Shown here: in pieces, positions 34,526-39,920 of the stretch
How the letters are laid out: every line of letters begins with the position of its first letter
How positions within the stretch are numbered: position 1 is the first letter of the stretch
Assembly (NCBI GenBank): GCA_021296215.1
Contig: JAGWBA010000002.1
Location: 1 to 64,000, forward strand
From: Flavobacteriales bacterium
Lineage (GTDB): Bacteria; Bacteroidota; Bacteroidia; Flavobacteriales; ECT2AJA-044
DNA length: 64,000 bases
Direction of reading: 5' to 3'
Program-made: the position numbers and the translations under genes
Notes under the pieces: model-generated
Seen by the model: only the letters and a program-made list of their open reading frames with translations
Told to the model about the DNA's origin: nothing
Databases searched by the model: none

Positions 34526-35563
34526 TCAATGCCCCGGTCTCAAAAGAATCTTCGGAATAAAGCCCACACGAGCGGTATCGACCGGATCGAAGAACGGGTC
34601 GAGGTGGTGAAGCCGGCCGCGAGTAGCAAAATCGAGTACATCGGTATAATACCAATCGCCCAGCAATGGATCGCGATATATGGTTCCCACGTTCGCAGCG
34701 CCCGTTGAGCACATGGCATTTGGTTGAAAGATCCAATCGTTCCGCCTGAACTTGTATATCTCGGCATTCGACCAAAAGTAAAAGGCGTCTTCATTTGTTA
34801 CGAAATGCAGGTGCGACGCATCTCTTGGGCCAAAATCGTGAGTTCGCATGACAAACCCGTTAGAGGCGTTGATCTCGACCAAATCAGAACCTATGCTCGC
34901 ATGTGTTAGGGCATACATACGGCCTGCGGCCAGAAGCAGGTCGCTAACGCCTCCGGGTAGATCTATTTGGTGGCGCAGGGAATCGCCCCGCAGATCAAAG
35001 CCCAAAAGATCGCCATTTACTTGATCTTCGACCCATAAGATAGAATCGACGAGCACCATACGCTCGGTCCAGCCGGGGGTTTCCCATTTATCGAGCACCT
35101 CACCTGTTTCGGTATTGATCACCCAAAGGTGGGAATCAAAGAGTTGTGAAACGAAGATTCGGTCGTCTTTACGCACCATATATCTCGGCGATCCGAGGTT
35201 TTGGAAATCGCGCCGCAGGCGCATCGTAGCGGGGTTAACGACGGCAATACGCGACGAGTTATTGACTACGAGGTACAGGTCGTTTTCATCTTCGTAGACT
35301 GATTGAAGCACATCGCCGAGGGGAAGGTCGTTCGTGGTTTCAAAAATTTCGGAAGCCGAAGTTTTATCGAAGGGTTGGTAGTAGCTGAGCGAGGCGTTTC
35401 CAAAATTGAATGTTCCTTCATTTCCTATGAGGACACCGTCATCGAAAGCAAAGACGCCACTCCCCTCTTCTATAGTGCTCTGGGGGCCTATTTCCTCGTT
35501 TTGACATCCCGTTAATACAAGGACAATGAATATGGCCCTTATTATTGTACGTTTAGTCGCCAT
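34526..35563 (-). CDS. BtuG-like beta-propeller lipoprotein, DUF5074-like
   Basis: 345 residues with lipobox Cys at residue 20 (VLTGCQN). Repeated blade-like segments follow: IAVVNPATMRLRRDFQNLGSPRYMV, LWVINTETGEVLDKW, LLGFDLRGDSLRHQIDLP, LVEINASNGFVMRTHDFG, giving a YncE-type seven-bladed propeller. In Bacteroides BtuG is such a surface lipoprotein, with very tight cobalamin binding beside BtuB. The gene overlaps the receptor gene by 22 bp and lies downstream of the cobalamin riboswitch, which supports a cobalamin-binding role, though residues cannot be mapped here. Confidence 0.75.
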   Translation of the reverse strand: MATKRTIIRAIFIVLVLTGCQNEEIGPQSTIEEGSGVFAFDDGVLIGNEGTFNFGNASLSYYQPFDKTSASEIFETTNDLPLGDVLQSVYEDENDLYLVVNNSSRIAVVNPATMRLRRDFQNLGSPRYMVRKDDRIFVSQLFDSHLWVINTETGEVLDKWETPGWTERMVLVDSILWVEDQVNGDLLGFDLRGDSLRHQIDLPGGVSDLLLAAGRMYALTHASIGSDLVEINASNGFVMRTHDFGPRDASHLHFVTNEDAFYFWSNAEIYKFRRNDWIFQPNAMCSTGAANVGTIYRDPLLGDWYYTDVLDFATRGRLHHLDPFFDPVDTARVGFIPKILLRPGH

Positions 35564-37401
35564 TGGGCTCCGATTTGAAAGGTTCGGCCCGGCATCGGGC
35601 GCAGTGGAATGGTTTGATAGTGAACATCGGTGACGTTAGCGCTTTGAACGAAAGCCGCTACTTGATGCTTGCCCCAGTACCATTTGTACGAACATCGCAA
35701 GTCCGCCGTTTGGTACCAAGGCATGTAGAATTCGTTTTCTCGGTCGGTATAAACGGATCCTTGGAAAACGAAGTTTAGTGAGAACGTGAATTTCCTCAAT
35801 GAATAACTGCTGTGAAGGCGAGCTTGATGAAGTGGGATAAAGATCAACTGATGGCCCTGCTGATCGCGACTTTGGGTGTAGGAATAGCTCGTACCCACGT
35901 TCAATTTACCGGCAAATATTGGCATGGTTCCCGATAAGTCAACTTCAGCACCGAGAATTTCGACCAGATCGATATTCGTGGCGCGCCAAGTGAGGTCAGA
36001 TTGAGGCAGCCAAAGGATGTAGTTTTCGACATGATTGGTAAATCCTGTAATTCGACTTTCCATAGTGGCTGCAACGATGTTGAACTCAAGCTCCTGGCTG
36101 ATTTCGTTTTGAAAGCTTTTCTCCGGGCTCAAATTCAATTGACCGTCGACTCCCCAGAATAGATCGTTCAGGGTTGGGTATCTTACTTGAGTCGCTGTTC
36201 GGAATCGAGTCCCCCATTGCTTTTTCGCTCCGTATGTCGCCTTGATACCCAACTGGTATTGAAAAGGTGCCCAATCGCCTTGAATGCGCTCCTGTTTAGC
36301 GTGAAACTCACCCCGTAGGTACTCCCATCGTCTATTCACCGATAATGCGGCTGCGTAGCGAGATCTTTTAGATTCGCCGTTTGGGTACGCTTCGACATCG
36401 CCTTGTTCCTGTATGTATTGCAACAGGGTCTCTACCTCAGTCAAACTATCGAGGGAGAATTGGGTTCTCCATTGACCCTGCCATGTTTGAGCTACCGATT
36501 CATCCTCGTCGAAATTGATGGCCCAGCTCGAGAAGCCCGCTCTGACTTGCGATTCCATTGATTCTCCCGAGGATGTCCATTCGGCTTGGACTCGTTGTTG
36601 CACGTCGTTTTGGGTAGATTGATCCATAGCGCTAGTGTTCGGATATATCGACATGAGCCCCGGAATTTGCCTATTGCTCTGCTGCAGCCACAGTCGAGCC
36701 ATGACGGTATTGTTAGAGTTCAGACGTACACCGGCTTCCTGAATCCACTGATTTTGATTCACCTCGGCGTGTTCGTTGACGAATGTTGGGCTATCGGTTA
36801 GTCGTGGGTTGGTGTACTCAAAATCATTCAGAGAATAATCCCACAGAAGTTTTGTACGCCAAAATATGGCTCCATTAGAAGCCGACAGATCAAATTCAGT
36901 GTGATTGGTTTTGTAGCTGCCCAAAACCTGTAGTAGTCTTAGCTGAAAATGCTCGGAGGATCGCGGTTCATTACTGAGGTTGAGCGCACCACCAAAAGAG
37001 GACACTCCTGACGGAAGTGACGCACCACCGTATATGAAGTCAATTTGATCGAATGCTGAGGGGCTTACCAAGTTCAGGTCGAACAGTCCGAGCATAGGGC
37101 TATTGACCGACATTCCATTCCACAAGACTTCCGTGTGTTGTGCTCCTGTACCTCGCACCGAAAACGTAGCTACGGCAGACGGGCCATAGGATTTTACATA
37201 TATCGGAAGCTCCGCTGAAATGGATTCAGAGAGCCTAAAGTATCCGACCTGCATGGACGAATCGAGTTGCAGGTTCAAGGCCCCTTCGGACCCTTGAACC
37301 TGAACGGCCCAAAGATCCACATCGGAAAGCATGGTGGTGTCCATCTGGCCGTAGGCCAAAATCGACATAAAGAATAAGATCGCTGTGTAAAATCGGCGCA
37401 T
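35542..37401 (-). CDS. btuB: TonB-dependent receptor, BtuB-sized, probable cobalamin transporter
   Basis: 619 residues with signal MRRFYTAILFFMSILAYG. The plug domain is recognised by LPIYVKSYGPSAVATFSVRG, TGAQHTEVLWNGMSVNSPM and IYGGASLPSGVSSFGGALNLS. The remaining 480 residues form a barrel ending in a terminal strand (TFQIGAQWRLNVQ). Size equals E. coli BtuB rather than the much longer SusC type, and no carboxypeptidase-like N-terminal domain is present. Cobalamin specificity is inferred from the upstream riboswitch. It follows the T9SS-sorted gene by one base. Confidence 0.85.
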   Translation of the reverse strand: MRRFYTAILFFMSILAYGQMDTTMLSDVDLWAVQVQGSEGALNLQLDSSMQVGYFRLSESISAELPIYVKSYGPSAVATFSVRGTGAQHTEVLWNGMSVNSPMLGLFDLNLVSPSAFDQIDFIYGGASLPSGVSSFGGALNLSNEPRSSEHFQLRLLQVLGSYKTNHTEFDLSASNGAIFWRTKLLWDYSLNDFEYTNPRLTDSPTFVNEHAEVNQNQWIQEAGVRLNSNNTVMARLWLQQSNRQIPGLMSIYPNTSAMDQSTQNDVQQRVQAEWTSSGESMESQVRAGFSSWAINFDEDESVAQTWQGQWRTQFSLDSLTEVETLLQYIQEQGDVEAYPNGESKRSRYAAALSVNRRWEYLRGEFHAKQERIQGDWAPFQYQLGIKATYGAKKQWGTRFRTATQVRYPTLNDLFWGVDGQLNLSPEKSFQNEISQELEFNIVAATMESRITGFTNHVENYILWLPQSDLTWRATNIDLVEILGAEVDLSGTMPIFAGKLNVGTSYSYTQSRDQQGHQLIFIPLHQARLHSSYSLRKFTFSLNFVFQGSVYTDRENEFYMPWYQTADLRCSYKWYWGKHQVAAFVQSANVTDVHYQTIPLRPMPGRTFQIGAQWRLNVQ

Positions 37402-37402
37402 A

Positions 37403-38110
37403 TTACTTGATCACGCGGCGCACGGTCCGGTTTCCGGATTCCGACTGGGCCACGATCAAATATGCGCCAGAAGGCCAACTTGAGGTTGGAACGCGATGGT
37501 CGATAGCTTCTTCACGGTTGATGATCACCTGTCCGGCCCCGTTGTACACCTCAAGTGAAATTCTCTCATCACCTTTGATGTTGAGGTTCTCGATCACCGG
37601 AACGGGGTACACGGACAATTGAAGATCGCTGCGCTCCATCAAAGAAGCTACTGGAGGTGCCGCCGTTACCGGAGCCGATGGTTCGATAGCCGGATCGAAA
37701 TCCATGTAACTACAACCGAACCAGGTACCCGCAGGTACGTCGGCACCGATACCTAGGTTCGAGGTCCAAGAGGTGGGATTTCCAGACCAAGTTCCCCAGT
37801 AATCGGGTTGACCACCAAGTCCTTGTTGGGTGCCGTAAACGACATCATTCAAGAACCCCGTGGTAATACTAACACTAAAGCCCGGATAATCATTAGCAAC
37901 TGCCTCAAGTAATCCTTCCCCATCGATTGAACCATCGAAAAGCACACCCCATGCGACGGATCCGGAGCCATCCAAAAAGTCGATGACAAGACCGGCCGTA
38001 TCGCTTCCAGCACCGGCAAAGAATTGAAGGTCAGATAACTCAGTAACTTGTGCGTTCACGTAAGTGGCCAGGCCGCACAAAAGCCCGGCAGATAGTAATT
38101 TAAAGCGCAT
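37403..38110 (-). CDS. Secreted T9SS class A-sorted protein, riboswitch-controlled, unknown function
   Basis: 235 residues. Signal MRFKLLSAGLLCGLATYVNA; an unknown domain (residues 20-150) with LSDLQFFAGAGSDTAGLVID, AWGVLFDGSIDGEGLLEAV and TWFGCSYMDFDPAIEPSAP; then a class A T9SS C-terminal domain (QLSVYPVPVIENLNIKG to NRTVRRVIK, about residues 165-235). It is the first gene after the cobalamin riboswitch. It could bind corrinoid at the cell surface and hand it to the receptor, but that is inference: I do not recognise the N-terminal domain. The start at 38110 follows the riboswitch by about 45 bases. Confidence 0.8.
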   Translation of the reverse strand: MRFKLLSAGLLCGLATYVNAQVTELSDLQFFAGAGSDTAGLVIDFLDGSGSVAWGVLFDGSIDGEGLLEAVANDYPGFSVSITTGFLNDVVYGTQQGLGGQPDYWGTWSGNPTSWTSNLGIGADVPAGTWFGCSYMDFDPAIEPSAPVTAAPPVASLMERSDLQLSVYPVPVIENLNIKGDERISLEVYNGAGQVIINREEAIDHRVPTSSWPSGAYLIVAQSESGNRTVRRVIK

Positions 38111-38154
38111 ACTTTATCCCGAAGTAAGGTTAAACAATCAGTAAAGACTTAGGC

Positions 38155-38285
38155 AGGTCTTCTGACTTACTCCCAGTTTCGGGCCTTCCCACACGATCAG
38201 TGCAGTGGCGAGGATCGAAACGCTTGGCGAAGCTTACAGCTGCGGGAACAGTTCCGGAGTTACACCGGATTCCCTATTAATCTCA
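38155..38285 (-). promoter_or_regulatory. Cobalamin riboswitch (B12 element)
   Basis: Read on the minus strand it contains AATAGGGAATCCGGTG, the core CCCGCAGCTGTAAGC, the B12 box GCCACTG, TGGGAAGGC and the 3' segment GTCAGAAGACCTGCC, in the order and spacing of the cobalamin riboswitch. It lies in the leader of the T9SS-sorted gene, btuB-like receptor and BtuG-like lipoprotein, so adenosyl- or methylcobalamin should repress the operon. The ends are approximate. Confidence 0.95.
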
Positions 38286-38334
38286 AATGCAAAAAGTAAT
38301 TGAGAACCCAAGACGGGATAAAGGTAGGCAATTT

Positions 38335-39053
38335 TTATTTGTTGGGGGGTATTACGGTGATCTTGAAGCCATAGTTCAAGAACCGCATTTTTGTGAGTCC
38401 CTCGAAGTTTTCCGCATCAAAAGAAACGGTGGATTTTTGGTTCATGCCCGTATAATCAGTGTAGAGGGATAGGAAAACGAAATCCTCGATAAGGTTGAAT
38501 TGGAGATCGAGTCCGAAATTATAGCCGAATGCCACATTGTTGTCGAAGTTCACAACCTCTTTAAGGACTTCATCGCCCATATCATCAAATACGGTGATCG
38601 TGAAGGCAGGTGTATCCGTGAAGACGATTCCCCCCCCACGCATAAAGATTAATGGAGATCTTGTTACTGGCATCGATCCGAAAATCAGGGCCAATCGTGG
38701 TCAATAATGGACTGTAGCGACTGTCGGAAATACGTGTTTCAAGCCCAAGGTCCTCGGTAAAGTCCTGCGCCATGGTCTCAGTGTCCATGTTATTCCACGA
38801 ATAAGTACTGTGTGAACGATACCCCCAATGCGACTGATTTTTAAAAGGGGTGGGTGTAGGAGTCAAAAACGATACCCCAACCGCTCTCGGCGTACCCGCC
38901 GTTCTCGACATTGGCCTCACCAAAATCGCCCAAGGGCATTGAAATAAAAGCTCCAATGGAAGATTGACTTTGAGCAAAAAGGAAGGTGGCCAAAAGGGCT
39001 CCGCTAAAAGTGAGTATTAATTTCTTAATGACCGTGTTTTGCGGAATATACAA
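38335..39053 (-). pseudogene. Outer-membrane beta-barrel protein, two frameshifts
   Basis: Three frames make a barrel of about 240 residues. The first piece (38841-39053) has a signal (ILTFSGALLATFLFA, cleaved before QSQSSIG) and ends VFDSYTHPF. An indel at the T4/A5 tract near 38,837 switches to KNQSHWGYRSHSTYSWNNMD. The C8 tract at 38630-38637 then shifts to GGGIVFTDTPAFTITVFDD, which runs to 38335 and ends in KITVIPPNK. The annotated start would be TTG 39053; the true start may differ. The gene precedes the riboswitch on the same strand with no overlap. Both breaks may be sequencing indels. Confidence 0.65.
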
Positions 39054-39059
39054 AATGAA

Positions 39060-39920
39060 TCAACGTGGAAAGGTCTTCAAAGCCTGATTATACGCCGTTT
39101 CGAATGCTAGGGAATTTAGTCCGTGCTGCAGTTTATTTTCCGTGGCAAAGGAAAGCAGCTTCTCTGTAGGCATGTTTCCGATCAAGTCATCCGTGGCCAT
39201 AGGGCAACCCCCAAAACCTTTAATTGCACCATCGAAACGTCTACATCCGGCATCCCATGCCGCCTTTACTTTCGGGTGCCAGTCGTTCGGTATCGTATGC
39301 AAGTGGGCTCCAAACTGGATCTCTGGCAATGCGGGAATCAAATGGCTGAATAGTTGCGTGATCACTTCCGGGGTCGCTGAGCCAATGGTGTCGCTAAGCG
39401 CCAAGGTACTCACTCCCATTTGTTCGAGTCGTTCGGACCACATGATGACTAGTTCAGGCGACCAGTGTTCTCCATATGGATTGCCGAATCCCATGGACAA
39501 ATAGACCACTAGCCTTTTCTTGTGTCGAAATGCGATGTCCTGAATTTCTTCGACGATATGAAGAGACTCTTCAATGGTTCTGTTGGTGTTGCGTTTCTGA
39601 AATTCCTCACTCACACTGAATGGATAGCCCAGGTATTCGATCTCGGCAAAGCTTGCAGCGTCGTTAGCTCCGCGGACATTAGCTACGATCGCCAGTAGTT
39701 TGGAGTTGGTGTTATCGAGGTCGAGTTTATTCAGTACTTCAGCGGTATCGGCCATTTGCGGAATGGCTTTCGGGCTCACGAAAGAGCCAAAATCCACGAT
39801 CGGAAAGCCAACTTTAAGGATCGCGTTGATGAAGTCAACCTTTTTGTTGGTCGGAATAAACTCTTTGATGCCTTGCATGGCATCGCGGGGACAGTCGATA
39901 ATCGTGATTTGTTCGCTCAT
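39060..39920 (-). CDS. mvaB: Hydroxymethylglutaryl-CoA lyase
   Basis: 286 residues of the HMGL-like TIM barrel. [20 protein letters not shown] at the N-terminus, [28 protein letters not shown] and the signature GGCP in [19 protein letters not shown] identify the lyase that splits HMG-CoA into acetoacetate and acetyl-CoA, using a divalent metal held by Asp and His residues ([11 protein letters not shown]). The stop lies 6 bp from the beta-barrel gene; its ATG overlaps the pyrD stop (ATGA). Confidence 0.9.

Follow-up and report, generated by a model that had tools for sequence, protein, structure and literature searches.

The closest described counterparts of the system reported here are the vitamin B12 (cobalamin) uptake operons of gut Bacteroides, in which the outer-membrane receptor BtuB and the surface lipoprotein BtuG form the BtuBG complex. 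We analyzed a 64,000-nucleotide stretch of DNA from a Flavobacteriales bacterium (contig JAGWBA010000002.1, positions 1 to 64,000; hereafter the window), in which a minus-strand operon runs from a cobalamin riboswitch through ORF1, ORF2 and ORF3. ORF2 and ORF3 are homologous to BtuB and BtuG, but the operon differs from its Bacteroides counterparts in that it lacks BtuH, BtuJ and BtuK and starts with ORF1, a cargo of the type IX secretion system (T9SS) that bears a domain predicted to resemble the beta-domain of animal transcobalamin. The operon very probably serves B12-repressed outer-membrane corrinoid uptake through BtuB and BtuG, led by a T9SS-secreted capture protein, and ORF1 likely captures corrinoids by means of this predicted domain displayed on the T9SS tail.

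Several accessory proteins accompany BtuBG. In Bacteroides thetaiotaomicron, BtuK (BT_1486/BT_1487) is encoded by the first gene or genes of a riboswitch-led B12 operon, and BtuK1 binds cobalamin (PMC12751083). BtuH, like the proposed ORF1 product a surface accessory B12 binder beside BtuBG, and often adjoining an ORF1-type domain, has PKD domains together with a C-terminal domain reported to lack known structural homologues (PMC8941943). The BtuJ proteins (BtuJ1/BtuJ2; DUF4465, IPR027828) are likewise accessory corrinoid-binding surface proteins of riboswitch-led Bacteroidota B12 operons; their fold is an augmented beta-jellyroll (PMC13398666), and among 824 DUF4465 proteins, 229 have IPR026444 as a C-terminal targeting domain (PMC12751083). 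This proportion already implies T9SS-sorted B12 binders. IPR026444 is presumably the type A tail of the T9SS. A transcobalamin-like clade, within the SLBB superfamily, was described by Burroughs et al. in 2007, who proposed B12 scavenging for its bacterial members and listed it in low-GC Gram-positives, planctomycetes, euryarchaea and animals, the Bacteroidetes not being listed (PMC1796856). In the open-licence full-text literature we found no paper that joins transcobalamin-like domains, the T9SS and B12 uptake in Bacteroidota.

The ORF1 domain and its predicted fold

ORF1 (37403..38110) encodes a secreted protein of 235 residues. A Sec signal peptide is predicted at residues 1-20 (MRFKLLSAGLLCGLATYVNA followed by Q; 38051..38110, minus strand), as read from the sequence, and residues 167-235 (37406..37612, minus strand) form a T9SS sorting domain of type A. 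The tail exceeds the curated cut-offs of both TIGR04183 (35.5 bits, cut-off 23) and PF18962 (32 bits, cut-off 27), in agreement with an earlier note on this DNA, which had described a small secreted protein with a class A T9SS domain. Between signal peptide and tail lies an N-terminal domain of about 130 residues, and the AWGVLFDGS and SYMDFDP motifs to which that note had drawn attention are both present in ORF1. Searches with this domain (residues ~21-150) gave no Pfam, NCBIfam or Protein Data Bank (PDB) sequence match; PDB sequence matches to hepatitis C virus E2 and Kirola were dismissed as chance.

We modeled residues 20-155 (37646..38053, minus strand) with AlphaFold2, using an alignment of 113 domain copies (A5), and obtained a predicted local distance difference test score (pLDDT) of 96.6 and a predicted template modelling (TM) score of 0.91. 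In a Foldseek search against the 350,542 chains of the PDB, the best 19 matches were 17 chains of animal intrinsic factor, transcobalamin or haptocorrin and two chains of the bacterial protein 3u7z, which we take to be a DUF4430-type protein. These 19 matches had probabilities of 0.91-1.00, and every other match stayed at or below 0.30. The TM-score of the ORF1 domain against 5np4, an isolated transcobalamin beta-domain crystallised with cyanocobalamin, was 0.62. We find the fold convincing because an unbiased search of this size, made with a protein taken from a B12 operon, brought up the B12 carriers of animals. A structure search had been put forward in the earlier note as a check, and the families it yielded were corrinoid binders, with no protease inhibitor or other non-corrinoid family among them.

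A second, longer subfamily of the domain (A3/A6, ~185 residues) is homologous to the first (hhalign 98.9-99.3%, E down to 1.5e-20). One of its members, a remotely homologous Bacteroides lipoprotein, was modeled separately (pLDDT 89), and its first eight Foldseek matches were again 3u7z, intrinsic factor, transcobalamin and haptocorrin. These models suggest that the ORF1 domain has the beta-grasp fold of the transcobalamin/intrinsic-factor beta-domain, with which it also shares an extracellular location and a B12 context. The ORF1 model contains a helix at residues 45-55 followed by strands at 59-64 and 67-73, which would be compatible with the beta-hairpin insert that contacts B12 after the core helix in the transcobalamin-like clade.

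The tryptophan at position 105 (W105) is invariant in all 113 domain copies, and aromatic residues (W, Y or F) are strongly conserved at positions 54, 104, 108, 131 and 135. Judging from this conservation, W105 and the five aromatic positions are candidates for the predicted binding site.

The domain is not BtuG, BtuH, BtuJ/DUF4465 or BtuK. Identity with BtuJ was rejected since the domain has no DUF4465 match and its model is a beta-grasp, and identity with BtuH since no PDB sequence match to BtuH (7biz or the H-domain of BtuG1) was obtained. BtuK had been suspected because the domain occurs as a lipoprotein after BtuH in a Bacteroides genome (G228). It was rejected by means of a Bacteroides operon with the gene order of B. 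thetaiotaomicron operon 1 (L234), where the proteins of the two genes in BtuK positions, assigned by order, are of the DUF5074 type without a domain match. An operon of the J2-H2-L-G2-B2 type in another Bacteroides (L196) also gave no match to the ORF1-type domain.

Cobalamin riboswitch, operon and conserved context

The operon is headed by a cobalamin riboswitch aptamer (RF00174; 38135..38326, minus strand), which was detected by cmscan at 114 bits (E=8e-28; gathering cut-off 31.5 bits) over model positions 1-189, and which scores 147.9 bits with a purpose-built model, R1. It is the only RF00174 match in the 2.53-Mb genome. The earlier note had recognised the riboswitch as the head of the operon, rightly, but let it end at 38285, too short by about 40 nucleotides. 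ORF1 is separated from ORF2 by 1 bp, and ORF2 and ORF3 overlap by 22 bp, so the tight packing described before holds. The same arrangement is found in a congener, with 75% identity in the domain (L003/L250), and this recurrence argues against a chance arrangement. We looked for an intrinsic terminator in the riboswitch leader and found no terminator-like site; translational control is therefore the more likely mode of action. The 5' end of the leader is predicted to pair with the bases right before the start codon, and we build no claim on this pairing.

Many of the riboswitch matches in alignment A4 start with TAnCTTTGCC (about 38319-38326 in the window). This start resembles what we take to be the -7 element of Bacteroidota promoters, TAnnTTTG, and the match may therefore begin in promoter and not in aptamer sequence.

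The two downstream genes encode the probable partners of ORF1. ORF2 (35542..37401, minus strand; 619 residues) is a TonB-dependent receptor with a PF07715 plug, and its best PDB sequence matches are BtuB proteins of Bacteroides (8p97_A at E=2e-33, followed by 8p98_A and 8bmx_C, E ~1e-33). It stays below the cut-off of the BtuB equivalog TIGR01779 (57.8 against 599.7 bits). ORF3 (34526..35563, minus strand; 345 residues) is a beta-propeller surface lipoprotein of the BtuG type: it matches BtuG 8p97_B over residues 4-338 (E=4.4e-23) and PF16819 DUF5074 at 35.2 bits (cut-off 27.2), and the lipobox LTGC can be read in its sequence. A BtuB-sized TonB receptor and a BtuG-like propeller lipoprotein, as named in the earlier note, are thus borne out by these matches.

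We also surveyed the host genome for the means of export and for a use of B12. A full gene for the SprA translocon is present (TIGR04189, 2675 bits; cut-off 200), together with ~55 further T9SS tails and a gene for the B12-dependent methionine synthase MetH. These findings indicate a host that makes use of B12 and is able to secrete T9SS cargo, and with the tail of ORF1 itself they back the earlier proposal of T9SS delivery.

Homologues of the domain were gathered by domain sequence alone, without regard to context, from 198 genomes of the order, the class, a GTDB contig collection (41 loci), Bacteroidales and Bacteroides. The 80 domain-bearing loci tabulated are all from Bacteroidota, and one carrier of the domain, Crocinitomix catalasitica (L052), is a cultured species. 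According to Rfam scans and model R1, which detected riboswitches in loci outside its own building set, a cobalamin riboswitch stands on the same strand at the operon head in 77 of them, and the remaining L066, L156 and L249 are cut off by a contig end before the operon start is reached. No exception to the riboswitch linkage, for which a survey of homologues had been suggested in the earlier note, was therefore found among the 80 loci; because these loci share ancestry, the 77 should not be read as independent events.

The operons follow a few orders. A riboswitch may be followed by one to three domain copies on a T9SS tail, then optionally an H-like T9SS protein, BtuB and BtuG; by BtuB, two domain copies on a T9SS tail, an H-like protein and BtuG; or by BtuB, BtuG, BtuH and a domain-DUF5074 fusion. 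The operon in the window is the single-copy form without an H-like gene, and no H-like body was found elsewhere in its genome. The H-like proteins, a second T9SS-sorted family seen in most sister operons (alignment A7; L032, L039, L043, L048, L051 and others), have no Pfam match to their body. Comparison of this family with BtuH by hhalign (74.6%, E=2.7e-5, 46 columns) suggests that it is a distant relative of BtuH and a further candidate corrinoid binder.

The architecture of the proteins varies as well. Besides forms with one, two or three copies in a row before a T9SS tail, the domain occurs between a BtuG-like propeller and a T9SS tail (L070, L071, L151-L153, L157), ahead of a BtuK-like DUF5074 propeller in many Flavobacteriales and Bacteroidales, joined with an H-like domain in a single protein (L158, L162), and as a lipoprotein adjoining BtuH or BtuB in Bacteroides (L146, L237). 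Gut Bacteroides generally lack a T9SS. The lipoprotein form in these bacteria thus indicates that the route to the surface differs among lineages and that the link of the domain to B12 uptake persists. In some Bacteroidales (L070 4936-6666, L151-L153, L157) the first gene encodes a propeller-like region, one domain copy and a T9SS tail. Two genomes have both the tandem T9SS form and the domain-DUF5074 fusion, each with its own riboswitch (L012 and L248 in G114; L013 and L247 in G039).

Proposed function and alternatives

The predicted fold and the occurrence of the domain only in B12-uptake operons make it very likely that ORF1 catches B12 for the adjoining transporter. When cobalamin is scarce, the riboswitch would let the operon be expressed. 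ORF1 would then be exported by Sec and the T9SS and anchored on the surface by its type A tail, where its N-terminal domain would bind corrinoid and present it to BtuG, the lid of the BtuBG complex. BtuBG, in turn, would bring the corrinoid into the periplasm, to the benefit of MetH and other B12 enzymes. The earlier note had supposed that ORF1 is a T9SS-delivered corrinoid-capture protein, and the riboswitch linkage, the fold and the T9SS evidence all support this, with binding and hand-off as the presumptive steps.

Several observations weigh against corrinoid capture by ORF1. The Foldseek E-values are only 0.03-0.2, or up to 0.5 at the widest, and the case for the fold rests on the consistent identity of the matches, not on any single E-value. 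Profile searches against PDB and Pfam revealed no sequence homology of the domain to transcobalamin or DUF4430 (PF14478), and DUF4430 is absent from the match lists of all 113 domain copies even at E<=10. Homology was also sought with hhalign against one Bacteroidota DUF4430 protein and rejected (probability 3%); the short aligned stretch, not significant, falls on a YW...GI...G motif, and a search with that protein for further DUF4430 sequences in plasmids and the PDB gave nothing useful. ORF1 lacks a counterpart of the large alpha-domain with which transcobalamin covers B12, and no alpha/alpha toroid partner was seen. Finally, BtuL and BtuK2 of B. thetaiotaomicron do not bind cobalamin despite their position in B12 operons (PMC12751083).

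Such non-binders show that ORF1 could be an accessory of BtuBG that binds no corrinoid, either a subunit for structure or docking or a vesicle or assembly factor like BtuL, with its beta-grasp used for protein contacts; the propellers to which the domain is often fused may do the binding instead. We nevertheless regard this as distinctly unlikely, for the fold matches are cobalamin-binding proteins of animals, the aromatic residues including W105 are strongly conserved, and T9SS tails carry the domain by itself or two to three times in tandem, as would befit a ligand binder. If ORF1 does bind a ligand, this could be cobinamide, another cobamide or the B12-carrier complex of other organisms rather than intact cobalamin. 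B12 precursors, or ligands of another kind, have been proposed for bacterial transcobalamin-like domains (PMC1796856), and the domain is divergent, with a moderate fold match (TM ~0.5-0.6). The riboswitch class and the BtuB and BtuG partners point to cobamides in general, which makes this alternative improbable, and it would change the ligand but leave the capture mechanism as it is.

ORF1 might also be released into the medium as a corrinoid shuttle. Some T9SS cargo gets released, whereas a type A tail usually goes with surface anchoring through anionic lipopolysaccharide. Vesicles of B. thetaiotaomicron loaded with BtuJ capture and deliver cobalamin (PMC12751083), but Bacteroides make the ORF1-type domain as a lipoprotein, so surface retention looks conserved and we consider release unlikely.

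Capture at the surface by ORF1 thus being the preferred reading, the domain would represent a new, unnamed family of putative surface corrinoid-binding domains. Absent from Pfam, NCBIfam and the PDB sequences, this family is linked to B12 uptake alone in its 80 Bacteroidota loci, and it gains a specific structural prediction, namely that it folds like human intrinsic factor and transcobalamin. If the binding holds true, it adds a further corrinoid-capture class to BtuG, BtuH, BtuJ and BtuK, extends B12 competition beyond the lipoprotein systems of the gut to T9SS-equipped Bacteroidota, and bears on the origin of the animal B12-carrier domain. More speculatively, and with more doubt than confidence, we suggest that Bacteroidota own a surface 'intrinsic factor': a family that would share descent with the beta-domain of animal transcobalamin and reach the surface through the T9SS or as a lipoprotein. 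Its copies, single or two to three in tandem, would clamp B12 between one beta-domain and another or press it against a propeller, in place of the alpha/alpha toroid used in animals.

Neighboring and side features

DUF4430 itself is rare in Bacteroidota, exceeding its cut-off in one of 297 genomes. The protein concerned (L255 1435-1791, in G938) has 118 residues and no obvious signal peptide, and its gene adjoins a lipase-like gene, with no recognisable B12 operon. At another locus (L163 4960-6870, in G534:C233), a riboswitch-led domain gene turns in mid-domain into RHS-repeat-like sequence, possibly because of a true rearrangement or a chimera made in assembly. In the window, between the riboswitch and an HMGL-like gene, what seems to be the gene of a membrane or barrel protein is split into three frames on the minus strand (38335-39060). 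No such gene stands at this position in the congener (L003). A run of eight C residues (38630-38637) lies near a frame change, and either a pseudogene or an error of assembly may account for the broken gene.

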